From the NCBI RefSeq assembly GCF_000020525.1, contig NC_011026.1, forward strand, positions 124,001 through 188,000: DNA of 64,000 bases, in the 5' to 3' direction. The notes under the pieces are model-generated. The model did not search any database and was not told the DNA's origin. It saw only the letters and a program-made list of their open reading frames with translations. The DNA is from Chloroherpeton thalassium ATCC 35110. GTDB lineage: Bacteria; Bacteroidota; Chlorobiia; Chlorobiales; Chloroherpetonaceae. Each line of letters starts with the position of its first letter. Positions within the stretch are counted from its first letter, which is position 1. The position numbers were made by a program, and so were the translations under genes. Of the stretch, positions 17,356-35,621 are shown piece by piece.

Positions 17356-20300
17356 TTATACTGAGCGTTGAGCGGAGCCGAAACGCATATAGGCTGACCC
17401 TGCCGAGCTTTCAGCGCTTTTTACCTCACGGCCAAACGGGTTTTCGGGCAATTTATACGCCTCTTTCACGGGCTTGAGCGGACGCTTCAGCCAATGTGGG
17501 CGGCGTGTGCCGTCCGGGCTGTAATCCACCGCCGAGCGAGTGAGCGCCACCCATTCACGATAGACCTGCATGGATTTTTCCGTGTCGACAAAAACATCGC
17601 CGTAGTTGTCGTCGGGAGCAGCTTTGCTTACATTCATGGCTTTTTGCAGCCAGCAATGCGCTCCGCTAATCGGGTCGGGATGTACCGCATGTGTTAGGTT
17701 TTGATGCACACCGACATCCTTCCACCAAACGCGGCTCGTATCCGGGTCAAAGCTTTCCCAACTTTGCGCCCCGTGAATGATTTTCAAATTGAACCGATGT
17801 CCCGATTCGTCAAGCTCGGCAAGCGACGACATGCCCTTGCTCACGCCGATTTGTTTGTCCAAACGCCAACGCCCCAAGTGGTGACTACACGCAACCACGC
17901 CCGGCTTGATGCCCTCCGTCACCCAAACTTTATCAACGAAATAGCCGATTTCGGTCTCAACCCGAATCAAATCGCCGCTTGTGACCTGAAGCCGATTCGC
18001 GTCTTGCGGGTTCATCCAAACCGGATTGCGATGGCTGATTTCATAAAGCCACTTCGCGTTCGCGCTCCGCGTGTGAATCAGCGTCGGCAGTCGGAACGTC
18101 GGGAGCAGAATCATTTCCCCCTTGCTTCGGTTGATGAAATCCTGATGCACATGGCTTTTGAGCTGCCAAGGCACGGTATATTCCAGTTCCTTCCAGCCCC
18201 AATTGTAGAGCGTCGGGCTGAAAAATTCCAGCTTTTTGCTCGGCGTATCAAAGCCTTTATAGCGTTCGCCGTCCACTTCCGCACCCGGAGCATCGCCATC
18301 GATAGGCGCGGCATACGGCGTATAAGTTTCATGCACGACTTCAAAACAGCCGTATTTTCGCATGTATGCTAACGGCGTTAGGTTTTCCTTCGCAGCCGCT
18401 TCGGGAAGTCCCGGTACGCTGTTTTCGAAAATCCATTGCCAATATTCGTCTTGCGTAATCAGTTCGCCTTCTCGATAGGGACTTTCAAACCATTGGCGCA
18501 CACCTAACGAACCGTCGGGGTCCATTTTGCCGGAAAGTTCAACCCAAAATTCGTTTTCCTCCCAAACCTCGCCCGGATTGGCTTCGTAGGTAAAGCGAAC
18601 TTTTTTCCCCGCCCGCTCCATCGCCACGCGGCGCACTGGCTGCCGGAAGCCTATCCATTTTCCGGCGTGAGTTTCTTGGCTCATCAAATCGTGACGCTCC
18701 GGCCCGTGTCCCATCGGCAGCACATAGTCGGCAAACCATGCGGATTCGTTCCAAGTCGGCGTTAGGGCGACATGGCATTTGATTTTCTGCTCGTCCTTGA
18801 GCGCCTTCATCCAAACGAAGCCGTCGGGATTAATCCACATCGGGTTATAAACGCGCGTGAAATAGACATCCATTTCGCCGCGACCTTCCAAAAGAAAATG
18901 GGGCAAAAGGAAGCTCATTTCGTAAAAAGCGAACGGCCATTCGTGAGGCAAATGCAGCTCGTTCCAAGCCGTAATCGGCGGCGGCGTTTTGAAAGGCTTC
19001 GGCACAAATTTATTCCACGAGTTGCCCGAAGTCCCGCCCTTGGTGCCGACACTGCCCGTTAGGACATTCAGGAAAAAGAGCGTCCGGGCGACTTGCCACC
19101 CGCCGCGATTGCCCATCGTGGCCGAACGCCATGTGTGCGTGGCCAGCTTGCCGTCGCAATTTGCAATGTATTCGGCGCTTTCTATTAACCGTTCGATAGG
19201 CACTTCCGATTCTTCAGCCGCTCGCTCAAAGGTAAAATCCCGATAAAGCACTTTGAGCAGGCGGTCAAAGAACTCGAAATTTTTCCGATGCTCCGGGTCT
19301 TGAAGCTCTGCCCTGAGCGATTCCAATTCACCGTCATTTGATAGGTCGCCCTCCGTGCCGTGCGTCGCAAAATGCGCCAAGGTGTCCTCCCAATTGACCC
19401 ATTTCCGCATAAACTCTTTATCGTAACGGTCGTTTTGGATGAGATAATTGGCAAAAGCAAGTAAAACGGTCGGTTCGCTGCCCGGCCAAGTCGGAAGCCA
19501 AACGTCACTTTTGCTTGCGGTGTTGCTAAGACGCGGGTCGAGCGTAATAATTTTCGCGCCTTTCGTTTGCCCTTCGATAATGCGTTGCGCGTGTGGATTG
19601 AAATAATGCCCTGATTCCAAATGGGCAGAAAGGAGCAAAATCACGCGAGCGTTGGAAAAATCGGCGCTTGGCCTATCAAATCCGCTCCAAAAAGCGTAGC
19701 CCGCTCGCGCCGCCGCCGAACAAATATTCGTGTGGCTGTTGTGGCCGTCGACGCCCCAGCTTTGAATGCAACGATTTACATAGTGGTCTTCGCCCGGTCG
19801 CCCGACATGATACACGATGCCGTCCTTGCGAATCTTACGGCTTTCGCGCATTTTTTCGCCTATCTCCGTTAGGGCTTCCTCCCAAGAAATCCGTTTCCAT
19901 TTGCCCTCGCCGCGCTCGCCGACGCGCTTGAGCGGATATAAAATTCGCTCCGGGTCATAAATTTGATTGTGCGTCGCCGGGCCTTTGGCGCAATTTCTTC
20001 CGCGACTGCCCGGATGCACTGGATTTCCTTCGAACTTTTGAATTTCAAATGTCGTCTTATCCACATAGGCCGTAAGTCCGCAGGCACTTTCGCAATTGAA
20101 ACAGATGGTAGGCACAAGCGTGTAGCGACGGGCGACCTTTTGCGGCCAGGCCTTTGCGTCCCATTGTACCCAATCGTCCCATTTGTCAGGCGGCGGGTAG
20201 CTGCTGATGCGCCCGTCCGGTTGCCTAACTTCAATCATATTTTCCGGCGCCGTGTCGGTTACGCCGAACTTCGGCAGCGACTCACCGGCCACATTTGTCG

Positions 20301-20388
20301 TTTCTTTCGGAGCATCTTCTTTGGGGTCGTTGTAAAGATTCCCCACACCTAACACATTGGAAAGAAATTTTGATAAACTTGATGGCAT
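17356..20388 (-). CDS. soeA: Cytoplasmic molybdopterin oxidoreductase catalytic subunit, SoeA/polysulfide-reductase-like
   Basis: 1010 residues, DMSO-reductase superfamily. An N-terminal [4Fe-4S] site is formed by Cys96, Cys99, Cys103 and Cys133, and Cys223 in SHTNICSAA is placed to bind molybdenum. No twin-arginine signal is present, so the enzyme should stay in the cytoplasm, as known for sulfite dehydrogenase SoeABC and unlike exported PsrA/PhsA. Beside it are a fused Fe-S/NrfD membrane partner and a TorD-like chaperone. With the sHdr genes upstream, which release sulfite in the cytoplasm, oxidation of sulfite to sulfate is the likely job. Polysulfide or tetrathionate chemistry cannot be excluded. 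The start has AGGAG 7 bases upstream. The last residues, MRFGSAQRSV, are encoded by a dispersed-repeat-like sequence. Confidence 0.8.
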   Translation of the reverse strand: MPSSLSKFLSNVLGVGNLYNDPKEDAPKETTNVAGESLPKFGVTDTAPENMIEVRQPDGRISSYPPPDKWDDWVQWDAKAWPQKVARRYTLVPTICFNCESACGLTAYVDKTTFEIQKFEGNPVHPGSRGRNCAKGPATHNQIYDPERILYPLKRVGERGEGKWKRISWEEALTEIGEKMRESRKIRKDGIVYHVGRPGEDHYVNRCIQSWGVDGHNSHTNICSAAARAGYAFWSGFDRPSADFSNARVILLLSAHLESGHYFNPHAQRIIEGQTKGAKIITLDPRLSNTASKSDVWLPTWPGSEPTVLLAFANYLIQNDRYDKEFMRKWVNWEDTLAHFATHGTEGDLSNDGELESLRAELQDPEHRKNFEFFDRLLKVLYRDFTFERAAEESEVPIERLIESAEYIANCDGKLATHTWRSATMGNRGGWQVARTLFFLNVLTGSVGTKGGTSGNSWNKFVPKPFKTPPPITAWNELHLPHEWPFAFYEMSFLLPHFLLEGRGEMDVYFTRVYNPMWINPDGFVWMKALKDEQKIKCHVALTPTWNESAWFADYVLPMGHGPERHDLMSQETHAGKWIGFRQPVRRVAMERAGKKVRFTYEANPGEVWEENEFWVELSGKMDPDGSLGVRQWFESPYREGELITQDEYWQWIFENSVPGLPEAAAKENLTPLAYMRKYGCFEVVHETYTPYAAPIDGDAPGAEVDGERYKGFDTPSKKLEFFSPTLYNWGWKELEYTVPWQLKSHVHQDFINRSKGEMILLPTFRLPTLIHTRSANAKWLYEISHRNPVWMNPQDANRLQVTSGDLIRVETEIGYFVDKVWVTEGIKPGVVACSHHLGRWRLDKQIGVSKGMSSLAELDESGHRFNLKIIHGAQSWESFDPDTSRVWWKDVGVHQNLTHAVHPDPISGAHCWLQKAMNVSKAAPDDNYGDVFVDTEKSMQVYREWVALTRSAVDYSPDGTRRPHWLKRPLKPVKEAYKLPENPFGREVKSAESSAGSAYMRFGSAQRSV

Positions 20389-20414: not shown

Positions 20415-22058
20415 TTAACTGTTCGCAACTTTTTGAGGGGCTGTCACAAAGGCGTATTCATAAAAATAAAGGCCGACGAGCATGGCCACACCGCCTAACG
20501 CCATGCCGATGCCGACATTCGTTAGCACAAGCAAAAACGCCGCAAGGTGTCCGACGGCAATCGCGCCGCCCCAAAAATAGCTTTTAAATTCGCCGTGAAT
20601 CATCTTATGCGCGGCGGCGGCTGCCGTTTCGCTTGCATGAGGCATCGCAATTTCCCCAAAGAAAATGACGAGCAAATCAAGCGTTAGGAAAATCAAAAAT
20701 CCGTTTTTTGCAAGGCTAAAGACTTCCGGCGCAAGCGGCGCAAAAAGGTTCAAAATGAGAAGCGTTCCTGCTCCCGCCATCACCGCCTGAACGATCAAGT
20801 GCAAGGGCAACAGCGGACTTTGCCACAGGTCGCGCCCTTCTGCCTGACCGAAAAGAAATGCCGTATAAACGGTTACCCCTAACGAAAATGGAATCATCGC
20901 AACGAGCGCGGCGGTTCGCAGTTCCGGCGAAATCTCGCCGATGACGCCCATAAGCGAAAGCATTTCGGAACCCCACCAAACGGCAGAAAGGGTGCTGAAA
21001 AGTCCCAAATAAACCGCTCCCCTTGCAAGCCAACTTTTGGTTTGCGGTCGGAACATAACGCGCAAAAATCGGTCGGGCTTTTCCAAATCAACTACAAGAA
21101 ATACTGAAGTTAAAGCTGAGAAAATAAGCGATGTGAAAAATCCGACGGCGGCCAGCGTCCCGCCGATTTTTGCAAGGCCGAACGCATGAACGACCGCAAG
21201 GAATAAAATTAGTCCGGCGGCAACGCCTTTGGTGACGAGATAAGCAGGCACCGGCCAATGCCATTGCAAGGCGTGTCGAATATCGTAAGCGACCTGCGCC
21301 ATTTGTGAGGCTTCGCGCTCGCCGGTTTGCACCGTTCCGCCGTTAGGATGCCCTTGTGCCGCAAGTCGGCGAATCGCCGTACCGGAAGTGGATTTTCTTT
21401 TTGTGCCGTTCGTTGAGGCCGATTTCTTCGCATGACCGTTCCGATATGCGGCAGGCGTTTCCGCCCAAAGAAACTCTTTCGAGAGATGCTCCGCAGCCGT
21501 CGGCGTTAGGTTCAGGTCATGTCCTTCGATGTAAAAAAGTTTCGGCGCGGTGCCTTGTTCCGGCTTTCGAACGGTGACGCTATTTTTAGAAAGCACCTTT
21601 TGAATTTCGCTGTTCGGATCGTCAAGGTCGCCGCAAACGATGGCATGTTGCGGGCAAACGACCACGCAGGCCGGCTCGAGGCCGTTTTCCAAACGATGCG
21701 CACAAAAATGACATTTCGAGGCCGTCCCTGAGTCGGGGTCGACATGAATGGCGTTGTACGGGCAAGCCTGCGTGCAAGCTTTGCAGCCGATACAGACGTT
21801 TTTATCGAACTCCACGATGCCATCCTCACGCTGATACATGGCCGTGACCGGACAAATCCTAACACATGGCGGGTTGGCGCAATGATTGCAACGGGTTACT
21901 TGAAAATATCGCTTGGTATTCGGATAAGCGCCCTGCTCCGTGTATTTCACCCAAGTTCTCGATACGCCGAGCGGGACGCTATTCTCACTTTTGCAAGCCG
22001 TAGAGCAGGCATGGCAGCCGATGCACTTTCGGTTATCTATCACAAAACTATAATTCAT
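20415..22058 (-). CDS. soeBC: Fused Fe-S electron-transfer and NrfD-like membrane subunit (SoeB-SoeC fusion)
   Basis: 547 residues. Residues 1 to about 190 carry four ferredoxin-type cysteine groups, beginning Cys12, 15, 18, 22 (CIGCHACSTAC), then CNHCANPPCVRICP, CIGCKACTQACP and CHFCAHR...CVVVCP, as in DmsB/PsrB/SoeB. A polar linker (about 205-265, rich in Lys, Ser, Thr, Gly) leads to a C-terminal domain of about eight membrane helices with the NrfD/PsrC segment DLEKPDRFLRVMFRPQTKSWLARGA. Electrons from the molybdoenzyme would pass through the clusters to quinone. In most organisms the two parts are separate genes. It lies 26 bases upstream of the catalytic-subunit gene. Confidence 0.85.
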   Translation of the reverse strand: MNYSFVIDNRKCIGCHACSTACKSENSVPLGVSRTWVKYTEQGAYPNTKRYFQVTRCNHCANPPCVRICPVTAMYQREDGIVEFDKNVCIGCKACTQACPYNAIHVDPDSGTASKCHFCAHRLENGLEPACVVVCPQHAIVCGDLDDPNSEIQKVLSKNSVTVRKPEQGTAPKLFYIEGHDLNLTPTAAEHLSKEFLWAETPAAYRNGHAKKSASTNGTKRKSTSGTAIRRLAAQGHPNGGTVQTGEREASQMAQVAYDIRHALQWHWPVPAYLVTKGVAAGLILFLAVVHAFGLAKIGGTLAAVGFFTSLIFSALTSVFLVVDLEKPDRFLRVMFRPQTKSWLARGAVYLGLFSTLSAVWWGSEMLSLMGVIGEISPELRTAALVAMIPFSLGVTVYTAFLFGQAEGRDLWQSPLLPLHLIVQAVMAGAGTLLILNLFAPLAPEVFSLAKNGFLIFLTLDLLVIFFGEIAMPHASETAAAAAHKMIHGEFKSYFWGGAIAVGHLAAFLLVLTNVGIGMALGGVAMLVGLYFYEYAFVTAPQKVANS

Positions 22059-22186
22059 GGCTGTTCCTATCGGTCTCTTTGTTGTTTTTGTTGTAATGTT
22101 GTTTTGACCCTATCGGTCTGAGCAAAGACGACGATTTTAATTATTACCTCCGTCTTTGCTCCCGCTGACAAATTTTTTCTTGTCGG

Positions 22187-22243: not shown

Positions 22244-22314
22244 TGACACGGTAAATTTGTCATTCAACGGCTTATCTTTTTCCATTTCGGAAAAGTCATG
22301 CCTAAAGCCTTTTG

Positions 22315-23424
22315 TCAGGAAGCTTTCCGCGCTTCCGCCGTAAAGCGTTCCATGCCGATGCGCCGATGAATTTCCGGCAAAAGTGCCGCGCCTTTTTCCC
22401 AATCAACCAAGCGGTTGATGAAGTAAAAGAGGTACATCGTCGTCAGCCAGTTGGTGAAATCCGCTTCGGTTGTCAGATGTTTTTTCATGTTTAAAATGAT
22501 CCATGAAAAATGCTGCCAAACGTCGAGGCAGGAGTCGCACGAGCGCGTGGTGGCGGTGCAGCAACGGCGCGTGGTCAGAAAATCGGCGTTGTAGGCGCGA
22601 AAATGCGGACTGTAAGGATTTCCGTTTGTTAGGCGTTCGGCATTCACCGGGTTGTTCGTTGAAATGCTCGTGCAAACGCTGTAGCCCCATTCTTGCTCAA
22701 ACAATTTGCCGGTTGAAACCACCTCGCCGATGTAGTTCGAGAGCAAAATATGCTCCGGGAAACGCTCAATCATGCGGGCAATCTCTTCCCTTGCAAATTG
22801 AAAGCCTTGACGATGGTCATAGCTGCCACCCATATTTGTCAGGTCACTATAAAACGTATAAAGCACCCGATTGCCGTTTCGGACGCATTCCTCCGTAACT
22901 TGCTGAATTTCATGCGCATTTCCCGGCGTGACGGTGTAGTACCAAAACGCCCGCGAATCATTGCGATAATTTTTCAGCGCGACGGGAAAAATATCGCGTT
23001 TCCCGCTGCCACGCATTTTCCTATCGGTTGCATGATTGCCCCAAACGGATACGCCTATCGGCATTTGCTCAAACCCTTCGTAAGGAATTTTGCGAAAACC
23101 GTTTGTGGAAACATTCATTTTGAAATTATCATAAACCTTTTTCAAGCGGCCTAATTCCAAGCTCGGCTCACCGCCGACGACCGTCACGAAATTCGTGCCG
23201 CGCTCTTTTTCCGATTCAATGAGCCTATCAAAATCGCCGTCCGTTGCGTTGCTTCCCAAACGGTTTATTTGCTGCGAAAAATAATAGCAGCCCTTGCAGT
23301 GAATGTTGCATTCATGCGTTAGGTCAAGGGAAATCGAGCGAATCGCACCGGCCTTACGCACTTCATCGTAGAGCGTTTTCAAAAACGGCTCGGTTAAATA
23401 TTCTTTTAAGCTTCCTCGTTGCAT
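22315..23424 (-). CDS. Radical SAM protein of unknown function in the lipoate-assembly block
   Basis: 369 residues from the start MQRGSLKEYL at 23424, chosen because AAAGGAGG lies 6 bases upstream; a start at 23526 would overlap the ligase gene by 121 bases. The cluster-binding motif C-x3-C-x2-C is at Cys39, 43, 46 (CNIHCKGCYYF) and the GGEP motif at 84-87. A cysteine group near the C-terminus (Cys288, 289, 296, 299) could hold an auxiliary cluster or bind substrate. It overlaps the upstream lipoate-ligase-like gene by 19 bases, so it is probably translated with it. I do not recognise its family; it is not LipA and differs from both LipS-type proteins nearby. Confidence 0.75.
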   Translation of the reverse strand: MQRGSLKEYLTEPFLKTLYDEVRKAGAIRSISLDLTHECNIHCKGCYYFSQQINRLGSNATDGDFDRLIESEKERGTNFVTVVGGEPSLELGRLKKVYDNFKMNVSTNGFRKIPYEGFEQMPIGVSVWGNHATDRKMRGSGKRDIFPVALKNYRNDSRAFWYYTVTPGNAHEIQQVTEECVRNGNRVLYTFYSDLTNMGGSYDHRQGFQFAREEIARMIERFPEHILLSNYIGEVVSTGKLFEQEWGYSVCTSISTNNPVNAERLTNGNPYSPHFRAYNADFLTTRRCCTATTRSCDSCLDVWQHFSWIILNMKKHLTTEADFTNWLTTMYLFYFINRLVDWEKGAALLPEIHRRIGMERFTAEARKAS

Positions 23425-24434
23425 AAGACCTCCTTTTCTTGCAAAAGCAGTTCGGACTGCCAATTTTTCAAGGGTTTGCCTATCAAAAATTGATGCAGCT
23501 TTCGATGAAATCTCTTTTTCGGACATTCGATAACGGCGTCCGAAATAATGCCGTCCGTCACCTTCATGGCGACTGAAAACGACATGCCGTCTATCTCAAG
23601 CGTTTCGTGATGGATAAACGCCCGCGCCGAAATTTTCAGCGGACGATATTTTTTTTCCGGTTCGTGAAGGGCTAAAAATTCATCGGAAGCAAGCGTTTGG
23701 CAAAAGGCTTCGGCTTTCGCTTGCTCCTCACTTGTTAGGCTTCCGATTGCGATAGGTCGCCCTAAAGATTGACTATAAGCGTTCGTTAGTTTTTCGCAAA
23801 GCTCGGACGGCGAAGCATCAATTCCGAGTTGCTTTAACGTCGTTAGGCGCTCAGATAGCGCGTTTTCGGCAAGCCGGCGAAATCCGTGTGACGGTGCGAA
23901 CCAAACCGTTGTCATGGCCGACATATCAAAATCCAGAAGAATGTTGCCGACGACGACAGCGGCCTCGCCAAGCTGCCCGCCACCCGTTCCCGCAATGCGT
24001 TTGCCGGAAACTTCAATTTCGTTGGCGCCTTGAAGCGAGGCATCTAAGCCCATATTTTTCAGAACTTCAATCGGTGGCGAAAGCAGCTTGGCATAAATTT
24101 TTTCAAACCGAGCGGGAAGACGGCTTTGATGAAACACGCACTGATAAAAAATTTGATTTTCATCCAAATAGGTTGTGCCGCCGCCGAGTTTTCGCCTAAC
24201 AATCGAAATCTGTTTTGCCTTGCAAATTTCCAAATCCAAAATTTGCTCTAAGGCTTGATGATAGCCGATGCACAAATAAGGCGTGGCAGGCTGCGTTAGG
24301 ATAATCGTATCCGGCGTGTCCTGCGTCATGGCGGCGGCGACCGCATGATAAACGGCCTGCGTCATCACGGCGTCGGTTTTACCGAGCGAAATCACGCGAA
24401 TCGGGGCGTTTTGCTTTGTGTCTTGCATCATCAT
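23406..24434 (-). CDS. Lipoate-protein ligase/octanoyltransferase-like protein, second copy
   Basis: 342 residues, BPL/LplA/LipB fold. The lipoyl-AMP binding motif RRKLGGG is at residues 80-86, and NEIEVSGKRIAG at about 138-149 supplies the catalytic Lys145. A C-terminal domain (about 265-342) resembles an LplB-like accessory domain. It could attach lipoate or octanoate to a lipoate-binding protein, or move it between proteins. A more canonical sLpl(AB)-type ligase lies three genes upstream, so the two may differ in donor or acceptor. AAAGGAGA precedes the ATG at 24434. Confidence 0.75.
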   Translation of the reverse strand: MMMQDTKQNAPIRVISLGKTDAVMTQAVYHAVAAAMTQDTPDTIILTQPATPYLCIGYHQALEQILDLEICKAKQISIVRRKLGGGTTYLDENQIFYQCVFHQSRLPARFEKIYAKLLSPPIEVLKNMGLDASLQGANEIEVSGKRIAGTGGGQLGEAAVVVGNILLDFDMSAMTTVWFAPSHGFRRLAENALSERLTTLKQLGIDASPSELCEKLTNAYSQSLGRPIAIGSLTSEEQAKAEAFCQTLASDEFLALHEPEKKYRPLKISARAFIHHETLEIDGMSFSVAMKVTDGIISDAVIECPKKRFHRKLHQFLIGKPLKNWQSELLLQEKEVLCNEEA

Positions 24435-24448
24435 TGTGTCTCCTTTTG

Positions 24449-25561
24449 TTAGGCAACTTTCATCGGCTGCAATTCTTCCAACTTCAATTGCTTGTGAATG
24501 TCCGCTTTGTCGGCAGCTTTCGGCATAAAGGGATAATCCCGGAAGGCTTCGCCCGGGCGATACGAACCGTAAGGCCGATTGCAGGCCATAACGCCGTGCC
24601 TATCGGGACATCCGTCCGTCATAAAAGCAATGCCTTCGTCAATCGTCCTATCGATTAATTCGTCCGAAACATCCAATTTTGAAATCATGCCGTGATCGTC
24701 AAACTCAATCTCGGACTCCGTTAGGCCGTGATTTTCAATCAGATGCTTAACAAGCTGCACCCGGCGATGTCGCCAAATCGGTTGCGCCTGCACATGTTGC
24801 ATCACGGTCCCCGGCTCGGGGTTGAATGAGAAAAGGAAAACGGCTATTTCGTCCCTCACGGCGTCCGAAATGAGGCGGACAAGGTCTCGGTCGGTTTCGC
24901 CCAAGCCGACGATGACATGGCAATTCACATGTCGCGCACCGTAGAGCCGGCGGGCAAGGCGGATCATGCTCCAATAGCGCTCCCAGTTATGCGGGCCGCG
25001 AGCCTTTCTGCCGCGAGCCTGTTCAAAAATTTCGGGCGTGGCCGCGTCAAGGCCAAAGCCGACCATGTCCGCACCGGCGGCTTTGAGTTCGCGCAAGACG
25101 CCTTCGCTCATGGTGGTGGCATTGACGAGGCCGGAAATCGGGACGACCGGCGCGACTTTGCGAATTTGGCGAACAATGGCGAGCATGTCCGCATTGTTGC
25201 TCCGATGATGCACCTGCGACACACAAACGCGCCCAACGCCTAACCGTGCCTCAACTTCGGCGATTTTTTGTGCAATCAGTTCGGTCGGATAAATCGGCCA
25301 CGAGACGCGGATAAACGTATTTTCATCGGCAAGCCCCGGACGCTCACGCGCAAGGCCGCAATAGCTGCAATTCGCGGCGCAGCCTTCGTCATACACCTGC
25401 AATAAATTGATGCAATTGCAGCGGCATCCTTGAATCGTGCCGGGCTTCAGCCCCAATTCAACCGCCGCCGCCATGCTGATTCTAACAACATCGGGACTTG
25501 TTAGGGAAACTTCGGAAGTTCTTTTTTCGGTTTGCTTTATCTGCTCCATTTCAAAACTCAC
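24449..25561 (-). CDS. Radical SAM lipoyl-synthase component, LipS1/LipS2 type (first of pair)
   Basis: 370 residues. The radical SAM cluster is bound by Cys61, Cys65, Cys68 (CAANCSYCGL); an extra cysteine group Cys46, Cys48, Cys50 (CRCNC) just before it can hold the auxiliary cluster that is sacrificed as sulfur donor. Classical LipA has a different auxiliary motif and a C-terminal RSSY, both absent. With the neighbouring radical SAM gene it matches the two-protein LipS1/LipS2 lipoyl synthase described with sLpl(AB) ligases in sHdr organisms. I cannot say from sequence alone which is LipS1. Start GTG 25561; ATG 25549 is an alternative. Confidence 0.75.
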   Translation of the reverse strand: MSFEMEQIKQTEKRTSEVSLTSPDVVRISMAAAVELGLKPGTIQGCRCNCINLLQVYDEGCAANCSYCGLARERPGLADENTFIRVSWPIYPTELIAQKIAEVEARLGVGRVCVSQVHHRSNNADMLAIVRQIRKVAPVVPISGLVNATTMSEGVLRELKAAGADMVGFGLDAATPEIFEQARGRKARGPHNWERYWSMIRLARRLYGARHVNCHVIVGLGETDRDLVRLISDAVRDEIAVFLFSFNPEPGTVMQHVQAQPIWRHRRVQLVKHLIENHGLTESEIEFDDHGMISKLDVSDELIDRTIDEGIAFMTDGCPDRHGVMACNRPYGSYRPGEAFRDYPFMPKAADKADIHKQLKLEELQPMKVA

Positions 25562-25780: not shown

Positions 25781-26746
25781 TTACCAATTCACGCCGCAGC
25801 AGGCGTTGATAAATCGGGCTTGAAGCCCTTTGCTTTCGGCATATTTTACCATGCCTTCCGTCGGATAAGCGATGGAGTTGAGACCCATGTCGATGGCCGA
25901 ACGGTCTATTTGTTTTTTTACTTCGCCTATCGGTCGGGCGCAGCCGAGGCCGATCAGCGTTTCCGGTAGCATTGTTCGGGCTGCGAAGAAAATTTCCTCA
26001 ATGTCCTGAATCGTTGGGGGCGCGATTTCGGCCATTTCGGTTCCGGCGACAGCCATTAAAACCACCAAAACGAGCATCTTCGGCGGGTGACGGCGCACCA
26101 TTTCCAGCGCGTTCAACTCGCCTTTGAGCTTCCCGAAATAATGCCCGATAACGACATGCGGCACACAGGGAAGTTCATATTTTTCAAGCCTTGCAAGTAC
26201 GGCTTCATAATCTTCCGGCTCTTTTTCAAGTCCGTAGACTTCACGAATCGTTTGCCGGTCGCCTATCACATCGAACATCACGCCGTCGATATTTGCCTCA
26301 CGAAGTGCGGAGCATGTTTCGTCGTCGATAAGTCCGGGATGGACACGAACGGTTAGGCCGAGTTCTTTTTTGACTCGCGCCAAATCGGGAATGAACTTCA
26401 AAAGCGGCACGCTGCCCGCGCGGTCGCTGCCGCCCGAAATCAACACGCCTTTTGCGCCGTCCTCCGAAAGCTTTCGGCACATCTCGAACAGCGAGCCTTG
26501 GAATTTTTTCAAATTCAGCATTCCGCGCAAAAGCACCTTACCGCAATGCTTGCAGTTAAGGGCGCAATCCGTTCCCGTTAGGCTAACGGCGACGAACTCG
26601 CGCGAGTTATGCTTGGTATATTCCGACGTTTGATATTGCTTCAGGCCGGGCGTATGAAAGACAATTTCATTCGGAAAATTTGCCTTGCGCAATTCAAATG
26701 CCGCCTCGGCGCGTTCGTCTGTTCGAAGCATCGTTTCATCCTGCAT
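25781..26746 (-). CDS. Radical SAM lipoyl-synthase component, LipS1/LipS2 type (second of pair)
   Basis: 321 residues. The radical SAM motif C-x3-C-x2-C is at Cys61, Cys65, Cys68 (CALNCKHCGK), with LISGGSDRAG as the SAM-binding glycine segment. Two adjacent cysteines, Cys317 and Cys318 (NACCGVNW), at the very end may bind an auxiliary cluster. Position between the sLpl(AB)-type ligase and another LipS-like gene points to sulfur insertion at C6 or C8 of a protein-bound octanoyl group. TAGGAGG lies 6 bases upstream of the ATG, inside the end of the ligase gene, which it overlaps by 11 bases; the two are translationally coupled. Confidence 0.75.
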   Translation of the reverse strand: MQDETMLRTDERAEAAFELRKANFPNEIVFHTPGLKQYQTSEYTKHNSREFVAVSLTGTDCALNCKHCGKVLLRGMLNLKKFQGSLFEMCRKLSEDGAKGVLISGGSDRAGSVPLLKFIPDLARVKKELGLTVRVHPGLIDDETCSALREANIDGVMFDVIGDRQTIREVYGLEKEPEDYEAVLARLEKYELPCVPHVVIGHYFGKLKGELNALEMVRRHPPKMLVLVVLMAVAGTEMAEIAPPTIQDIEEIFFAARTMLPETLIGLGCARPIGEVKKQIDRSAIDMGLNSIAYPTEGMVKYAESKGLQARFINACCGVNW

Positions 26747-27884
26747 AGCCGCCTCCTAAGCCCAATTCCGTTTTCGGCGTGACGAAGCAACCGTAAGGCT
26801 CGGTTTTTTCCGACTCGTTTTTTTGTAAGGCGTTTTCGATGGCAGCGTCAATCGCTTGGAAAACTTGGTGAATCGGCAAGTGGCTTAGCTCGGTTTCGCG
26901 CTCGCGATAAAGCGCATAAAGCGTTTCTTGAACGGCGTCAGATTTGGCGGAATGCCAGCGAAAACGGGCTTCCAAATCGGCAATCGCATTTTCCGACGCA
27001 ATGAAATCGCCGCCGAGATGCAAGGCCTTCAAGGTTTTTCCGGCCAGCGTGACGGCCACATCCAAAAGGCCGCCCGGCGTTTTCAGCTTGGCTTTTCCGG
27101 CGCTGTCGGGAACATCGCTGTTTTGGAAAATCCAATCGCGTGTGGCATATTTTCCCTTTTCTAAAACGTTAGCTTCCAGAAATTCTTCAGCCGAAAAGCA
27201 ATCTTCACGCAGCCGTGTTTCGAACGTTTTTTCGTAGCCTTCCCCGACCAACCGCCGTAGTTCGTCAATTGAAACCGGCGCTCGGGCTTCTTTCCTAACG
27301 GTTGTGATTCGCTCGGCAACCGTACCGATTTCCTTGTCGGTAATTTTTTCAAACGGCGTTTTCAGCACTTCGAGCATCAGCGCCACATCAAGGTCAAACA
27401 GGATCGAGGCGTGAAAAAGTAGGCCGCCCGTCGCGGTGCGATGCAGGCCGAGTCCCGCAATTTTTTTGCCGTTAACTTCGATGTCGTTTTTGCGCTTGAA
27501 CGCGGCATCGATGCCTAACTGTTCGAAAGTAGACAAAATGCCTGACGAAAATCTTGCCATCATTTCCTTCACGCGGGCGTAAGCGGGCTGATTTTTGGCG
27601 GAAAGCGTCAGCGCCACACCAAGCTGCCCCTCGCCCATGATGATTGCGCCGCCGCCCGTCGGCCTGCGATTGACCGCGATGCCGAGCTTTGCGCAATTCG
27701 GTAAATTTACCTCATTTTCAACCGTTTGAAATCGCCCGACCAGCGCCGAGTGCGAAGCGTAAGTATATATTCTAAGAGTCGGTTCGGACGTGCCCGCACC
27801 GACGCGCCTTGCCAGCGTTTCGTCGGCGGCAAGTCCGAAACCTGCGCTTGCGTCGTCGTCTTGAATCAGTCTCCATGTATCCAT
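26736..27884 (-). CDS. sLpl(AB): Lipoate:protein ligase sLpl(AB) type (LplA-LplB fusion)
   Basis: 382 residues. The LplA part carries RRPTGGGA (73-80) and NDIEVNGKKIAG (133-144) with the catalytic Lys at 140. The C-terminal part from about residue 245, with LKTPGGLLDVAVTLAGKTLKALHLGGDF-like sequence, is an LplB-type accessory domain fused on the same chain. This fused form is known as the ligase that lipoylates LbpA proteins in sHdr bacteria. It lies directly after lbpA2 (11-base gap) and before a LipS-type gene. Expected reaction: ATP-dependent attachment of lipoate or octanoate to LbpA in the cytoplasm. Confidence 0.82.
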   Translation of the reverse strand: MDTWRLIQDDDASAGFGLAADETLARRVGAGTSEPTLRIYTYASHSALVGRFQTVENEVNLPNCAKLGIAVNRRPTGGGAIIMGEGQLGVALTLSAKNQPAYARVKEMMARFSSGILSTFEQLGIDAAFKRKNDIEVNGKKIAGLGLHRTATGGLLFHASILFDLDVALMLEVLKTPFEKITDKEIGTVAERITTVRKEARAPVSIDELRRLVGEGYEKTFETRLREDCFSAEEFLEANVLEKGKYATRDWIFQNSDVPDSAGKAKLKTPGGLLDVAVTLAGKTLKALHLGGDFIASENAIADLEARFRWHSAKSDAVQETLYALYRERETELSHLPIHQVFQAIDAAIENALQKNESEKTEPYGCFVTPKTELGLGGGYAG

Positions 27885-27895: not shown

Positions 27896-28345
27896 TTATC
27901 GGTCAAAAATGCTTTCCGTCTCGCGCTTCATCATCTCGCCTTTCGCCCAGCTTGTGATGCGATTGCCGCTGACGAGCAATTTCGACTCGTCGTGCCAGTT
28001 GTCAGGATTGATTAAAACGAACCAACCGCGACCGTAAGGTTCGGCGTTGACGATGGACGGTTCTTCCAAAACATTGGTGTTGCGTTGAATAATCGTGCCG
28101 GAAACGGGCGAAAGAATTTCCCCAGTCATTTTTGCGGCCTCCAGTGAGCCGAGCGATTCATGGCGGCGAACACGGCTGCCCGCGCTATGAAACGACATGT
28201 AGACCAACTCGCCGGCGGAGTCCAATCCTAACGCATCGATGCCGATGACGACATTGCCGGTGGTCGGATCGGGCTTTGCCCAAAAATGATACCGGCTGTC
28301 GTAGAACCGGTCTTCCGGGAATTTGAGTTTTTCGTTTCGGCTCAT
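27896..28345 (-). CDS. lbpA2: Lipoate-binding protein LbpA, GcvH-like (second copy)
   Basis: 149 residues, GcvH-like beta-barrel. The lipoylation hairpin GSLEAAKMTGEILSPVSGTI (about 66-85) has Lys72 as the modified residue. In the glycine cleavage H protein the same hairpin reads GSVES-K; no gcvP or gcvT is present here, and sLpl(AB) is next door, so it is assigned to the sulfur system. It differs clearly from the other copy at 39509-39970: it has no NNCMLPEDL start and no C-terminal cysteine pair. AAAGGAG precedes the ATG. Confidence 0.82.
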   Translation of the reverse strand: MSRNEKLKFPEDRFYDSRYHFWAKPDPTTGNVVIGIDALGLDSAGELVYMSFHSAGSRVRRHESLGSLEAAKMTGEILSPVSGTIIQRNTNVLEEPSIVNAEPYGRGWFVLINPDNWHDESKLLVSGNRITSWAKGEMMKRETESIFDR

Positions 28346-29029: not shown

Positions 29030-31069
29030 TTAGGCTTCAACCGCTTCTTTTTTCGCCGCTTCGGCTTTGGATTGCTCCATTGCGTCATAGATGAAATCTA
29101 TGACATCGACGACCTTCAGCTTGCCTTCGTTGCCGGAGGTTTTGACCGCGTCGGTGAACATGGTCTTGTCCTTCGGGCAAGCGACGGCGAAATAAGCAAC
29201 GCCCAGTTCGGCTGCTTCCATCACACGATTTTCGCTCGGGCGTTGGGTCATGTCTTCATGCTCCTTCATCCAGATGCGTCCGCCGCCTGCTCCGCAGCAG
29301 AACGAATTTTCATGGTTGCGCGGCATTTCCACCAGTTCCACACCGCAGCGCGAGATGAGTTCGCGCGGCGCGTCGTAGATGCCGTTGTAGCGACCGAGAT
29401 AGCACGGATCGTGATAGGTTGTTTTTACCCCTAACGGTTTCTTTAACTTGATTTTTCCCGACTCCACAAGTTCCAGGAGCAGCGTGGTGTAGTGCTTCAC
29501 CTTGAACTTGCCGCCGAATTGCGGATACTCGTTTTTCAGCGCGTTGTAGGTGTGCGGGTCGGTGGTGATGATTTCCTCAAAGTTCGCTTTTTCAAGCGCC
29601 TTGATGTTTTGTTCGGCGAGCATGGCAAAAAGGCCTTCTTCACCGGCGCGGCGCACATCGTTTCCGGCGGATTTTTCGTCCTTGCCCAAGATGCCGAAGT
29701 CTACGCCGGCGGCCTGCAAAACGGTGGCCACTTTGCGCGTCGTGTCTTCGCAGTTTTGGTTAAACGAGGCGAAGTCGCCGACAAACCAGAGATATTTGAC
29801 CGGCTCTTTGGTCGCGTCTTTGATTTTGAAATCGAGCGGTTTTGTCCATTTGGTGCGCTTGCGAGCCGAGTCGCCGAAGGAGTTGCCTTGTTCGTCCAAG
29901 CCGCGCAGGGCGTCGGCCAGTTCGGCGGGCATTTTGGCGTCAAAGACAAGGTTGCGGCGCATTTCCACGATGTCCAGCATCGGTTCGTTGCCGACCGGGC
30001 AAACGCGCACACAGGCGTAGCAAGTGGTGCAATTCCAAATCGCATCCTCCGAAATCGCGTAATCGCTTAGTTTCGGGTCTTCCCAGCCGTTTGTGAGTTG
30101 TTTGGCGTTTTGATTGATGAAATAACGCTTGTTGATTTCCAACGCCGACGGGCTGAGCGGCGTGCCGCTGTTGTGCGCCGGGCAAACCTCGTGGCAGCGC
30201 GTGCACATGATGCAGGCGTAAGAATCCAAGACTTGCGGCCAAGCCAAGTCGCGCAGTTTCGCGGCGCCCGGCGCTTTGGCATCAAGCGGAGCATCCAACC
30301 GGCCGCGCGGCGTTTTGCGAGCGAGCGCAAGATTGACGGGAGCAATCATCAAGTGGATGTGCTTGCTTTGCGTGAAATACGGCAGGAACACGACGATAAG
30401 TCCCATCGCCAGCCACCAAGTGACATGGATGCCGACTTCAAGCCCGCCCCAACCGTGAAAAATCGGCGCAATAAGGCTGGCGGTCGGCAGAAACGGATCG
30501 CCGTGGCCGTGTTCGGCAAGATGAAAAACCGTGCCGAGCCAGCGCGAACCGACATGAATCAAGATGAAAATACCGACTATCAAGGAGTCACGACGAACGC
30601 CGCCTTCGGCAACCGCCGGGAGCAGCTTGACATTTTTATTAAACTCAAAAACTTTCGGTTTCATAACGAACCGGCGAATCAAGAAGAAAATCATGCCGGT
30701 TAAAACGAAAATGCTAAAGATGTCTGCAAAAAGGTTAAAACCGCGAGCAATCGGATTTTCACTGCCGATGGTCGTCCAACCCGGCACGAAGGCTTCCAAC
30801 ACGTCATTGACGTTCACGAGCAAATAAAAGCTGAATCCGAAGAAAATAAAGGCGTGGAACAAGCTTGCCAGCGGGCGAGCTTTGAAGATCGGCTTTTGCA
30901 TCCCGACATCAATCAGGGCGCCGATGAATCTGCCTGCCAAATTGTCGCTGCGGTCGGCAGAGCCGCTTTTTTGCATCAGTTTCACTATCCGGCTGAACCC
31001 CTGAAAGGCAATCCCTCCGCACACAAGCACCAGCAAAACAAACGCAATCTGTTCAGCGGGGTAAAGCAT
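29030..31069 (-). CDS. EMO-type membrane Fe-S oxidoreductase (ETF:quinone link; DUF224/CCG family)
   Basis: 679 residues. The N-terminal 240 residues have about five membrane helices with histidines (e.g. His72, His172, His216) as in nitrate-reductase-gamma/HdrE-like cytochrome b domains. Two [4Fe-4S] sites follow: Cys286, 289, 292, 296 and Cys347, 350, 353, 357. The C-terminal half is a CCG-type domain (HDPCYLGRYNG, then SFCCGAGGGR). This architecture matches the ETF:methylmenaquinone oxidoreductase EMO known from beta-oxidation. It follows etfA directly, so it should pass electrons from EtfAB to menaquinone. AAGGAG precedes the ATG. Confidence 0.82.
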   Translation of the reverse strand: MLYPAEQIAFVLLVLVCGGIAFQGFSRIVKLMQKSGSADRSDNLAGRFIGALIDVGMQKPIFKARPLASLFHAFIFFGFSFYLLVNVNDVLEAFVPGWTTIGSENPIARGFNLFADIFSIFVLTGMIFFLIRRFVMKPKVFEFNKNVKLLPAVAEGGVRRDSLIVGIFILIHVGSRWLGTVFHLAEHGHGDPFLPTASLIAPIFHGWGGLEVGIHVTWWLAMGLIVVFLPYFTQSKHIHLMIAPVNLALARKTPRGRLDAPLDAKAPGAAKLRDLAWPQVLDSYACIMCTRCHEVCPAHNSGTPLSPSALEINKRYFINQNAKQLTNGWEDPKLSDYAISEDAIWNCTTCYACVRVCPVGNEPMLDIVEMRRNLVFDAKMPAELADALRGLDEQGNSFGDSARKRTKWTKPLDFKIKDATKEPVKYLWFVGDFASFNQNCEDTTRKVATVLQAAGVDFGILGKDEKSAGNDVRRAGEEGLFAMLAEQNIKALEKANFEEIITTDPHTYNALKNEYPQFGGKFKVKHYTTLLLELVESGKIKLKKPLGVKTTYHDPCYLGRYNGIYDAPRELISRCGVELVEMPRNHENSFCCGAGGGRIWMKEHEDMTQRPSENRVMEAAELGVAYFAVACPKDKTMFTDAVKTSGNEGKLKVVDVIDFIYDAMEQSKAEAAKKEAVEA

Positions 31070-31157: not shown

Positions 31158-32102
31158 TTATTCCAATTCTTCGAGCATTTCCTCACAAACCTCAAAGAGG
31201 TCGGCGTTGATGCCATAGTGAGCCACATCGAAGATCGGCGCGTTTTTATCGGTGTTAATCGCAATGATGGTCGAGGCGCTCTTCATGCCTTCGAGGTGTT
31301 CCGGTGCGCCCGAAATGCCGAGTGCGATATAAACTTTCGGCTTGACCTTCAAACCGGATTTTCCGACCTGACGGGTTTTCGGCAGCCAGCCGGCGTCGAC
31401 CACGGCGCGGGAGCAGGCCACATCGGCTTTGAGGGCTTCGGCAAGATTTTCGGCCAGTTCGATATCGTCCTTGCTGCCAATGCCGCGACCGACTGCCACC
31501 AAAATTTCGCTTTGCGTGATGTCGACATCGCTGCCCTGCGGTTCAATCAACTTTTTGAAACGCACTTTTCCGTTGCCTGCGGAAACCGCGAGGTCTTCCA
31601 CTGCGGGCGAACCGGAAGTTTGACCAGCTTCGGCGGGGAACGAACCGGCAAGCACCAACGCGACGGCTGCTCCCGACACGTTCGTGACCACATTCATTTT
31701 GCCGCCGTATTGCTGGCTGACGAAAGAAAATCCGTCGCCCTCGTTTGAAATACCGCAGCAGTAGCCGACGACGGGCAAACCGAGCGCGGTCGCAACCGGC
31801 GCGGCGATGTCCATGCCCATCGAGGTTGAGCCGACTAGCGTCAAGGACGGGGATTTTGCTTCAACCGCCGCTTTGACCGCAGCCGCGTAAGATTCGGGAT
31901 TGTATTCGGTTTCCGTACCGACGGCGATGACCGCATCGGCGGCGCCCAATTCGGAAGCTTTATTTTTCATGTCGCCGAAAACGAGCGCAAGGCATTTGCC
32001 GCCCGTAGCGCCGGCGAGTTCTTTGGCTTTTCCAAGCATCTCAAATGTGATGTCCTGAAAGTCTCCTTTGAGATGTTCCGTTACAACGAGTATATCTCCC
32101 AT
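31158..32102 (-). CDS. etfA: Electron transfer flavoprotein alpha subunit
   Basis: 314 residues, usual length. The FAD-binding C-terminal domain shows the ETF-alpha signature (GWLPKTRQVGKSG, KVKPKVYIALGISG, then IIAINTDKNAPIFDVAHYG). It forms a heterodimer with EtfB encoded just upstream, carrying electrons from an Fe-S partner to a quinone-linked oxidoreductase. Context with sHdr genes upstream and the EMO-type membrane protein downstream suggests sHdr as electron source and menaquinone as acceptor. The central PAEAGQTSGSP linker is compatible with a non-bifurcating ETF, but this cannot be decided by eye. Confidence 0.92.
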   Translation of the reverse strand: MGDILVVTEHLKGDFQDITFEMLGKAKELAGATGGKCLALVFGDMKNKASELGAADAVIAVGTETEYNPESYAAAVKAAVEAKSPSLTLVGSTSMGMDIAAPVATALGLPVVGYCCGISNEGDGFSFVSQQYGGKMNVVTNVSGAAVALVLAGSFPAEAGQTSGSPAVEDLAVSAGNGKVRFKKLIEPQGSDVDITQSEILVAVGRGIGSKDDIELAENLAEALKADVACSRAVVDAGWLPKTRQVGKSGLKVKPKVYIALGISGAPEHLEGMKSASTIIAINTDKNAPIFDVAHYGINADLFEVCEEMLEELE

Positions 32103-32356: not shown

Positions 32357-33103
32357 TTAAATGACACCTTTTTCTTTGAGAATCTCCAGCAAGTCGCCTG
32401 CCGAATCCAACATGGTTGCACTGCCGGATTTTTCCGGTGGCGCCATGCTTGCGATTTCCGAGCCTGCGCCTGCTCCCAAATCGCCGGTCGAACCGGTGGC
32501 GAGGCTCATGGAATCTTGCACCTGACGCACTTTGCTGACCGGAGCATAGCGCGGGGTTTGGCGAGCGGCTTGAATGCCAAGCACGCCGGGCAAATCCATC
32601 TCAAATTCGGCAACCATGCCACCGGCATATTCCTTATTGACCAAAACGGAACTGCCCTGAACCTTAACGCCTGCTACGGCGCTGATGCACGGCAAGCCGA
32701 GATAAGTGGCAAGCACGGGGCCGAGCTGGCCGTCGCGGTCATCCACAGATTGGACGCCGGCCAAAATCAAATCGCAACCTTCGGTTTTGGCCGCGTTGGC
32801 AAAGGCTTGGGCGAGCTGGTGCGTGTCATGCGGGGTGTCGCCGGTGAGTTTGATGGCCTTGTCCGCGCCTTTGGCAAGGGCGGTGTAAAGCATCTTGTCG
32901 GTCTCGTCGCCATCGATAGCCATCACCACCACTTCCGTTGCCGCGCCTTCTTCCTTCAAAAGCAAAGCTTCCTCAAGCGCATGGTCGTCATACTCGTTGA
33001 GCTTAAACTTGATGTCATCGGTGTCAAGAGCTTTGCCGGAGCCATCGACCTCAAGGTCTTCCACCAAATCCGGCACTTGTTTTAACGGAACAATGATTTT
33101 CAT
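32357..33103 (-). CDS. etfB: Electron transfer flavoprotein beta subunit
   Basis: 248 residues from the start MKIIVPLKQVPD at 33103, chosen because AAAGAGGTAGAG lies directly upstream; an upstream TTG/ATG start would add 15 polar residues. The ETF-beta core is clear: KFKLNEYDDHALEEALLLKEE, then DLILAGVQSVDDRDGQLGP and the AMP-loop region. The last 40 residues form an extension ending in a short helix, GDLLEILKEKGVI, as in ETF-beta of Fe-S-coupled systems. Partner of EtfA. Confidence 0.92.
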   Translation of the reverse strand: MKIIVPLKQVPDLVEDLEVDGSGKALDTDDIKFKLNEYDDHALEEALLLKEEGAATEVVVMAIDGDETDKMLYTALAKGADKAIKLTGDTPHDTHQLAQAFANAAKTEGCDLILAGVQSVDDRDGQLGPVLATYLGLPCISAVAGVKVQGSSVLVNKEYAGGMVAEFEMDLPGVLGIQAARQTPRYAPVSKVRQVQDSMSLATGSTGDLGAGAGSEIASMAPPEKSGSATMLDSAGDLLEILKEKGVI

Positions 33104-33195
33104 CTCTACCTCTTTGCTGTTTTTGTTTTGTTGTTTTGTTGAAAACATGGGGTTTTCAACAGGTTAATGTTTGTTGTTTTTGTTTCGTCCGCGCT

Positions 33196-33578: not shown

Positions 33579-34865
33579 TTAATCTTCGCCCATGCAGTAA
33601 TCCAAGATTTCAATGATGTCGCGGACGATGAGTTTGCCGTCGTTGCCTGTGGCTTTGACCGAGTCTTCAAAACGAGAGACTTCATACGGGCAGCACACGA
33701 TTAGCACTTCCGCGCCGACTTCCACCGCCTCGCGGACGCGGTTGTCGGACAGGCGTTCGCTCAAATGCTCGTCGACCGTGCCGCCGAGCCATTGGCCGCC
33801 GCCGCCGCCGCCGCAGCAATAGCTGCCTTGCTTGTTGCGATACATTTCCACAAACTCCGCTCCCGGAATCGCGTTGATGAGATTGCGCGGCGCATCGTAT
33901 TCGCCGTTATGTCTGCCGAGATAGCAGGGATCATGGAAGGTGACTTTTTTCGCAAATTCGCGTTTGAGGAGCGGCTTTATTTCTTCCAATTTTTCGGAAA
34001 GAAATTGGGTGTAATGCTCCGCTTTGAGTTCGTTGCCCGTGATGGCCGGATAATGCTTTTTGAAGGCATTCAGCGCGTGCGGGTCGGTGACGACGAGCCG
34101 GTTGTGCGGATATTTTTGGAACAAGGCATCGTTGTGGCGCACAAGTTCATCGAAGAGGCCGGATTCACCGACGAGTCGCTGCGAGTCGCCGTCCGTCTTT
34201 TCTTCTTTGCCCAAAATTCCGAAATCCGTGCCGAGCTTGTTAAAGACGCGCACCATCGCTTTGGCCGCATCGTTGCCGCGACCGTGATAGGCGTAATAGT
34301 CGCTGACATGCCACAGCACATCGACCGGTTTCGAGCCGTCTTCTTTGGAGAGGTCGCGCACCTTTTCGTTCAACTTTTTCATCCATTTGATGCGATTGCG
34401 AGCCGATTCGCCCATCGGATTGCCGTATTCGGCCACGCTGCGGAGCATCTCCTGAAGCTCGTCCGGCGTTTTGCCGTCAAGCACGGCTTTTTCACGCGCC
34501 GACGGCATGATTTCCAACATGTTGACTTCCTTAGGGCAAACGCGCAGGCAATTCATGCAGGTCGTGCACATCCAAAGGTCTTTGTCCTCAATCAGGTTCA
34601 GGCCGGCTTGCACCTTGCGGAAAATCTTGCGCGGGGCATAGCTGCCGACATTATCCACCGGACAAACGCCGACGCATTTGGCGCACTGATAGCAATAGCC
34701 CAGCGATTCGCCGCCCGTCAGCGCGGTAATTTCTTCGAGATACTGCGTATCGTAGTCGGTAATTTCACGCGGCACATACATCCGATTCCATTCGCCGGAA
34801 ATATCCACCCCATCGATGATGGCGCTTTCGAGCTGCGTGGTTTGTTGATATTTATGCTCAGACAT
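33579..34865 (-). CDS. shdrB3: sHdrB3-type Fe-S protein (HdrC-HdrB/HdrD-like fusion with CCG domain)
   Basis: 428 residues. Two ferredoxin-like sites, CYQCAKCVGVCP near residue 58 and CTTCMNCLRVCP near 100, precede a CCG domain with HDPCYLGRHNG, YCCGGGGGGQW and a late VCCPYE. It is a soluble relative of the EMO-type protein's C-terminal half. In type II sHdr loci such a gene stands between the conserved unknown gene and etfAB. Inferred role: taking electrons from the sHdr core to EtfAB. It overlaps no gene but ends one base before the upstream gene's stop region, so coupling is likely. Confidence 0.8.
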   Translation of the reverse strand: MSEHKYQQTTQLESAIIDGVDISGEWNRMYVPREITDYDTQYLEEITALTGGESLGYCYQCAKCVGVCPVDNVGSYAPRKIFRKVQAGLNLIEDKDLWMCTTCMNCLRVCPKEVNMLEIMPSAREKAVLDGKTPDELQEMLRSVAEYGNPMGESARNRIKWMKKLNEKVRDLSKEDGSKPVDVLWHVSDYYAYHGRGNDAAKAMVRVFNKLGTDFGILGKEEKTDGDSQRLVGESGLFDELVRHNDALFQKYPHNRLVVTDPHALNAFKKHYPAITGNELKAEHYTQFLSEKLEEIKPLLKREFAKKVTFHDPCYLGRHNGEYDAPRNLINAIPGAEFVEMYRNKQGSYCCGGGGGGQWLGGTVDEHLSERLSDNRVREAVEVGAEVLIVCCPYEVSRFEDSVKATGNDGKLIVRDIIEILDYCMGED

Positions 34866-35621
34866 TTAGTTCGTCTCCTTTCCTTGAACCCCCAAAACCC
34901 GTTCGGCGAGTTCGGAAAGTTCAGGTAAAATTCGGTTGTATTCCTGCGATAATTTCACTTTGAAAACCAGATTCATATAGACGGCATAGACACAGGCCAG
35001 AAAGACATCCGTGCCGTAAAGTCCTTTGCCGAAGCGGGCGTAACCGCTTGTGTGTCCGTCGCGGGTGAGTTCGGCGACGGCTTGCCCGACTTTCAAATAG
35101 CTTTCTCCGTAGGTTGCGCCCGCAAGCTCGGCCTTGTCGCTAAGCACGAGCGGCAACGCACCTTTTCCGTTTTTCGGACTCCATATCCAAGTTGTCCATA
35201 GCCAATATTTATCAGGCATGGTGAAATGCAGGAGTTCACCGGCAAGGTTTAGCGCCCGCATTTCATTAATACCCTTAACAGCGTCGAGAAACCAATCATG
35301 GCGTTCGGCCACCGGCTTGTTGCCGTAAAGCAGGGTCTTGATTTCCGCTTTAAGCGGCTCAAAGCCGTTTGCCTGAACAAAGAACAAGGACTTCTTCCGA
35401 ACGGAGAAGACGGAAAGAAGAACACGGCGTAAATCGGTCTCGGTCATTCGATCAATCGCAGATTCGGCGAAGGTTTGCTCGAAAAGCCTGCCTTTTTCCT
35501 CAAGGCGCACGCCAAGCGTTTTCAACTTTTCCGAACTCGCCAGCCGATTTACCTGCTTCAAAAGTTCATGGGAAGCTTCGGAGTCAATCAGCGTTTCTAT
35601 GGATATGTTGTCGTATAGCAT
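34866..35621 (-). CDS. sHdr-associated conserved protein of unknown function
   Basis: 251 residues, soluble, rich in Leu, Glu and Lys, with a Trp-rich centre (DKYWLWTTWIWSPKNGKGALPLVL at about 135-158, quoted here only as position: the WLWTTWIW cluster is the striking part). No cysteine motif, signal peptide or membrane segment. A gene of this kind stands after sHdrA in described sHdr clusters and is called hyp. It abuts the sHdrB3-type gene without a gap. Function unknown; the strict link to sHdr suggests a structural or assembly role. Confidence 0.65.
   Translation of the reverse strand: MLYDNISIETLIDSEASHELLKQVNRLASSEKLKTLGVRLEEKGRLFEQTFAESAIDRMTETDLRRVLLSVFSVRKKSLFFVQANGFEPLKAEIKTLLYGNKPVAERHDWFLDAVKGINEMRALNLAGELLHFTMPDKYWLWTTWIWSPKNGKGALPLVLSDKAELAGATYGESYLKVGQAVAELTRDGHTSGYARFGKGLYGTDVFLACVYAVYMNLVFKVKLSQEYNRILPELSELAERVLGVQGKETN

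Follow-up and report, generated by a model that had tools for sequence, protein, structure and literature searches.

An orphan radical SAM protein tied to the lipoate-assembly genes of some type II sHdr clusters suggests an additional step in the maturation of the lipoate carrier

What does a third radical SAM protein do among genes for lipoate assembly? The lipoate set described for sHdr systems in the main texts of PMC10332631 and PMC6067878, sLpl(AB)-LipS1-LipS2, contains two radical SAM proteins, and the first-pass annotation of the locus examined here was right that this set, as presented there, does without a third. We call the additional protein rSAM3 and its ligase-fold neighbor Lpl2. 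The window, that is, the whole stretch of 64,000 nucleotides analyzed (Chloroherpeton thalassium ATCC 35110, NC_011026.1, positions 124,001 to 188,000), carries on its minus strand, in this order, genes for a DsrE-like protein, LbpA-1, sHdrC1, sHdrB1, sHdrA, sHdrH, sHdrB3, EtfB, EtfA and an HdrD-like protein, followed by LbpA-2, sLpl(AB), LipS1, LipS2, Lpl2, rSAM3, an NrfCD-like protein and a molybdopterin oxidoreductase with its chaperone (Table 1). Type II sHdr systems are defined in the main text of PMC11582611 by shdrC1B1AHB3 and etfAB in one syntenic cluster, and this combination was found in the window as HdrC-, HdrB-, HdrA- and fused HdrC/B-like matches together with Etf-like and sHdrH-like reading frames; the Etf, sHdrH and DsrE labels were given by inspection and gene order, not by profile match. 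The HdrD-like protein (679 aa) combines membrane segments with an HdrD/TfrB-like Fe-S part and is possibly an electron outlet from Etf to quinone; almost all relatives encode it after EtfAB, at 66-74% identity. Interspersed repeats between the genes of the sHdr/lip operon (22169-22255, 25646-25795, 28807-28836, 32171-32334, 33235-33336 and 35825-36078) share TGAGCGGAGACGAAGGCC and TTCGTCTCCGCTCA...ACACGG and occur in both orientations.

Table 1. Genes of the sHdr and lipoate-assembly region, in window coordinates
Feature	Position	Strand	Remarks
Molybdopterin oxidoreductase	17356..20388	-	inconstant in relatives
NrfCD-like Fe-S/membrane subunit	20415..22058	-	3' neighbor here, inconstant in relatives
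rSAM3, orphan radical SAM protein	22315..23424	-	369 aa, CxxxCxxC and five late conserved Cys
Lpl2, lipoate-ligase fold, Arg for catalytic Lys	23406..24434	-	Pfam LplA-B_cat
LipS2-type lipoyl synthase	24449..25561	-	NCBIfam LipS2 best match, 199.8 bits, under cut-off 270; CAANCSYC
LipS1-type lipoyl synthase	25781..26746	-	NCBIfam LipS1, 245.9 bits, over cut-off 230
sLpl(AB)-type lipoate:protein ligase	26736..27884	-	catalytic Lys kept (GKKIAG)
LbpA-2, GcvH-like lipoate-binding protein	27896..28345	-	Pfam GCV_H; lysine kept
Membrane Fe-S protein, HdrD/TfrB-like C-terminal part	29030..31069	-	
EtfA-like	31158..32102	-	ORF sequence by inspection, order conserved in relatives
EtfB-like	32357..33148	-	ORF sequence by inspection, order conserved in relatives
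sHdrB3-like, fused HdrC/HdrB type	33579..34865	-	HdrC/B-like match
sHdrH-like protein	34866..35621	-	by conserved position
sHdrA-like	36168..37229	-	HdrA-like match
sHdrB1-like	37222..38430	-	HdrB-like match
sHdrC1-like	38472..39209	-	HdrC-like match
LbpA-1, GcvH-like	39509..39970	-	

Translation of the rSAM3 gene agreed with the motifs that the first-pass annotation had read in it, namely CNIHCKGC (C39, C43 and C46), GGEP (residues 84-87) and, late in the protein, CC-x6-C-x2-C preceded by an arginine (C288/C289, C296 and C299), and the open reading frame coordinates confirmed its overlap of exactly 19 bases with the lipoate-ligase-like gene. A longer mechanical reading frame of 403 aa opens with the ATG at 23526; the start at 23424 was favored over it because the orthologues begin with the conserved segment L(K/R).YL.DPFL. 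Nine cysteines (C39, C43, C46, C180, C251, C288, C289, C296 and C299) were invariant in all 17 aligned orthologues. The first three were unchanged in all 20 aligned rows, distant relatives included, and C251, C288, C289, C296 and C299 were also present in two of the three distant relatives. rSAM3 therefore belongs to the radical SAM proteins, with its SAM-cluster motif intact and a further group of conserved cysteines.

The family search that had been proposed as a check found no clear homology to a known enzyme in Pfam, NCBIfam or the PDB sequences. In Pfam, Fer4_12 scored above its cut-off and Radical_SAM slightly below; no curated enzyme-family model of NCBIfam came near its cut-off, the best SPASM/Twitch maturase family reaching 34.4 bits of the 340 needed, over the core only; and the PDB sequence search returned weak matches confined to the radical SAM core. 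The NCBIfam models for LipS1 and LipS2 (NF053742, NF053743) did not match rSAM3 at E up to 0.001, and both LipS proteins are encoded by separate genes; by these models rSAM3 is neither of them. A structure model built from seven sequences (mean pLDDT 69.9, pTM 0.76) had a partial TIM-barrel fold and matched many radical SAM chains at Z 8-12, the best being BlsE (7vob; Z 12.1, rmsd 4.2, 231 residues), with SkfB (6efn; Z 11.5, rmsd 5.3, 217 residues) and anSME (4k36; Z 10.6, rmsd 4.3, 226 residues) among the others. These matches show the class of rSAM3, give no pointer to its reaction or substrate and leave room for families outside the list. The late cysteines C251, C288/C289, C296 and C299 may hold an auxiliary Fe-S cluster, a proposal that draws on their conservation because residues 247-299 were modeled at pLDDT below 50.

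Exact short peptide patterns, matched first against 84,980 species, can miss divergent copies and did so; they detected six relatives, all from Marinimicrobia or Calditrichota (59-69% identity). Profile searches found orthologues in 11 of 245 Marinimicrobia and 6 of 40 Calditrichota genomes, where the scores were bimodal (E 1e-179 or below for orthologues, above 1e-16 for everything else), and in one of 394 genomes of the window's own phylum, the C. thalassium genome itself; the next match in that phylum (E 1.5e-26) was a different radical SAM gene. In total, 18 orthologues from three phyla were obtained, at 55-68% identity, and this spread together with the nine invariant cysteines is far more than chance would produce. 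The scattered distribution that the first-pass annotation had named as speaking against its reading did not occur, since the orthologues are confined to Marinimicrobia, Calditrichota and that single genome. Distant matches (E 1e-10 to 1e-27) in G447, G239:C19, G117 and G042:C1 were rejected as other radical SAM genes, and no lip or sHdr neighbors were recognized beside them. The search of viral contigs and phages found no rSAM3 relatives. LipS1 was sought on plasmids and not found, so plasmids offer no sHdr control. The rSAM3 and LipS1 trees yielded no firm position for the copy of the window genome and no direction of transfer between phyla.

The rSAM3 gene is tied to the lip block. Among the 17 loci that could be read, the preceding gene was Lpl2 in 16 and LipS2 in one (genome G313), with gaps of -19 to +91 bases between Lpl2 and rSAM3. 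Furthermore, the presence of rSAM3 followed that of LipS1: in Marinimicrobia, 8 genomes had both, 3 rSAM3 only, 1 LipS1 only and 233 neither (Fisher p 5e-12), and in Calditrichota the corresponding counts were 5, 1, 1 and 33 (Fisher p 5e-5), these being non-independent events because related genomes inherit operons as blocks. In the rSAM3-only genomes the contigs break at or near the locus, and the contig of G310, which has LipS1 only, ends inside the lip block. Pairwise divergence of rSAM3 tracked that of LipS1, sLpl(AB), Lpl2 and LipS2 (r 0.81-0.89), and mean identities were similar (rSAM3 64%, LipS1 61%, LipS2 65%). Thus, the link to the lipoate-assembly block that the first-pass annotation had drawn was upheld by a lip gene always 5' of rSAM3 and by profile co-occurrence; the linkage is strong, and a link in function is very probable. 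Alternatively, rSAM3 could be a passenger, carried along with the operon but performing some unrelated function: the cluster appears to have moved between phyla, rSAM3 is so rare in the window's phylum, and one genome, G142, has lost it. Its retention by lip genes in three phyla at about 64% identity, with many gene ends overlapping or close, makes this explanation distinctly unlikely.

No recurrent partner was found on the 3' side of rSAM3, where DnaJ-like, PEMT, LbpA-1-like, NrfCD and other genes occurred. In two Calditrichota genomes, an LbpA-1-like gene lies immediately 3' of rSAM3 (L064 4569-5057, L065 10899-11387). The first-pass annotation had also considered a molybdoenzyme part as substrate, and rSAM3 might indeed serve the adjacent NrfCD/molybdopterin oxidoreductase, whose genes follow it at once or a few genes on in the window and in several Marinimicrobia. 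However, in the stretch read past rSAM3 no such Mo gene was recognized in L060, in L062 or in those Calditrichota loci whose 3' side is visible, and genomes G142 and G001 carry the molybdoenzyme without rSAM3. The molybdoenzyme role was thus not borne out, the 3' neighbor being NrfCD/Mo in some loci only and a different gene in Calditrichota and several Marinimicrobia, and the 5' neighbor always a lip gene, and we regard it as highly improbable.

Exceptional genomes bear on what rSAM3 depends on. The Marinimicrobia genome G142 (locus L067) keeps LbpA, sLpl(AB), LipS1, LipS2, Lpl2, NrfCD and the Mo gene, as well as the HdrD-like gene, and lacks rSAM3; between Lpl2 and NrfCD lies a 21-codon stub, MNTLKFYLQDPFLNRLYKKIK, equal to the start of rSAM3. 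Because this stub remains and the LipS1 of G142 nests in the tree among those of rSAM3 carriers, a secondary loss would be the reading, or else an assembly fault in one genome. The lip genes and Lpl2 being intact without rSAM3 argues that rSAM3 is accessory and not required for lipoylation; barring a deletion by assembly fault, neither lipoylation nor Lpl2 would appear to need it in G142. In G313, rSAM3 directly follows LipS2 with no Lys-to-Arg Lpl2 adjacent; the single other ligase homologue found there, encoded upstream of the hdr genes, has its lysine intact, no EtfAB or HdrD genes stand between sHdrB3 and LbpA, and no EtfAB was seen on the contig. Since rSAM3 stays with the lip genes there while the block has no EtfAB or HdrD, the lip genes are its constant partners. 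G313 and G142 together indicate that the two can part: rSAM3 can persist by LipS genes with no Lpl2 next to it, and Lpl2 can persist where rSAM3 is missing. G001, from the family of the window genome, has no rSAM3. It encodes a LipS2-LipS1 fusion of 684 aa (L094 9678-11729, minus strand; LipS2 at 9-320, LipS1 at 402-671), which adjoins a large ligase gene, a geranylgeranyl-reductase-like flavoprotein (a LipT candidate) and a DsrE-like gene.

These genomes also weigh on the idea that rSAM3 is the maturase of a type II sHdr redox subunit (EtfAB, sHdrB1, sHdrB3 or the HdrD-like Fe-S protein), introducing for example a cysteine-based crosslink or modifying the peptide in another way, and that its place in the lip block reflects a shared operon only. 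rSAM3 does lie within or beside type II sHdr genes wherever the contig extends that far, and the peptide-modifying SkfB and anSME stand beside BlsE among its best fold matches. Yet those matches reflect a common fold and give no clue to the substrate, the invariant neighbors are lip genes and never hdr or etf, rSAM3 of G313 sits with lip genes while EtfAB/HdrD are outside the block, and the HdrD-like, NrfCD and Mo genes of G142 persist without it. We consider a redox-subunit substrate unlikely.

Lpl2 gives a further clue to the substrate. It matched the LplA-B catalytic domain (PF21948) at 104.8 bits against a cut-off of 27, and alignment with the solved ligases 6jom, 1vqz, 8cri and 2ars showed that RRxxGGG is kept and that the catalytic lysine is replaced by arginine, as in all 17 Lpl2 copies. 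The lysine is kept in every sLpl(AB) seen, in the distal homologues of G313 and G310, in the G001 ligase and in the LipM-like protein of the window's own genome. The first-pass annotation had noticed neither this substitution nor that one lineage dispenses with rSAM3. Because LplA, according to the main text of PMC9307952, uses one lysine for adenylation as well as for transfer, the ligase activity of Lpl2 has probably been lost or changed, and its simplest role next to a radical SAM enzyme would be binding or docking. A role as non-ligase partner has a little less than an even chance. Two Calditrichota clusters have a second Lpl homologue with intact lysine upstream of DsrE/LbpA-1/sHdrC1 (L082 11898-13013, L068 2457-3566), possibly the ancestor state of Lpl2. 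The main texts on sHdr and lipoate assembly mention neither a lysine-less ligase nor, for sHdr lipoate assembly, a third radical SAM protein.

Outside the orthologues, the nearest relatives show about 30-33% identity across most of the length. They are encoded on plasmids of Alteromonas, Burkholderia and Tistrella, where a PaaA/PaaC-like protein and a hotdog protein of the MaoC or 4HBT type are encoded nearby; a more distant relative, from Methylomagnum, has a carrier protein, a TauD-like protein and an NRPS beside it. On Alteromonas plasmids, the PaaA-like/radical SAM/MaoC set looks mobile, near Tn3 transposases (L022 11108-13463, L026 9108-11463), and 11 records, including one labeled Enterobacter hormaechei, carry the identical radical SAM protein. 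The relatives' gene settings suggest acyl-type substrates, and because they adjoin acyl-type chemistry we lean, as a lead, toward the acyl arm of LbpA. The same settings beside acyl-thioester and carrier proteins, together with the ligase fold of Lpl2, would also suit an action of rSAM3 before attachment, on an unusual acyl precursor (a modified octanoate) or other small molecule that Lpl2 binds or delivers. No recurrent acyl-activating enzyme or carrier-protein neighbor of rSAM3 was recognized, however, and a 4HBT thioesterase gene occurred in one locus only, which leaves little likelihood for a pre-attachment step.

We therefore return to the lipoate carrier itself. rSAM3 would be a radical SAM maturase dedicated to the lipoate-carrier branch in some type II sHdr systems, acting on LbpA or, slightly more likely, on its lysine-bound acyl (octanoyl or lipoyl) arm; the first-pass annotation had likewise proposed LbpA or the lipoyl group as possible targets. 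Lpl2 would no longer ligate; it would recognize LbpA or the acyl arm and present it to rSAM3, in a step added to lipoylation and outside lipoylation proper. We give about an even chance to LbpA or its acyl arm being what rSAM3 acts on, and place the combined reading, a maturase with Lpl2 as docking protein, somewhat below that. The most specific form, in which Lpl2-docked rSAM3 converts LbpA-bound octanoate or lipoate to a new derivative, an altered lipoyl cofactor found in this subset of type II sHdr systems only, is speculative and rather doubtful. Taken together, the data suggest an extra, undescribed step in preparing the lipoate-carrying protein. Lipoate is regarded as a single, invariable cofactor; if the proposal is true, some sulfur oxidizers, including marine Marinimicrobia, add a step to lipoate-carrier maturation. 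rSAM3 also marks a family open to naming and searching.

Compared with known systems, the arrangement of type II sHdr and sLpl(AB)-LipS1-LipS2 genes is familiar, and the unnamed radical SAM family and the lysine-less Lpl2 are new. As in the type II clusters in the main text of PMC11582611, the window and those relatives with long enough contigs carry the same genes; rSAM3 and Lpl2, unmentioned in that text, are extra, and the G313 contig differs in showing no EtfAB. LbpA, sLpl(AB), LipS1 and LipS2 are all clustered here as in sLpl(AB)-LipS1/LipS2 assembly, whereas rSAM3 and Lpl2 are added and no lipT-like flavoprotein gene was recognized in the block (window 22315-28345; L006, L007, L011, L059, L061 and L063); the main text of PMC10332631 reports lipT in about half of LipS1/S2 bacteria. 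Lpl2 aligns with the solved ligases across the catalytic domain, RRxxGGG included, but has arginine where they have lysine. BlsE, SkfB and anSME share with rSAM3 the radical SAM fold and late conserved cysteines, but at 9-17% identity and with other cysteine spacing. The plasmid-borne radical SAM genes of Alteromonas, Burkholderia and Tistrella come closest, sharing the late cysteine group and an NGN...F..Y..D motif, but they lack C180 and have no lip or sHdr genes nearby.
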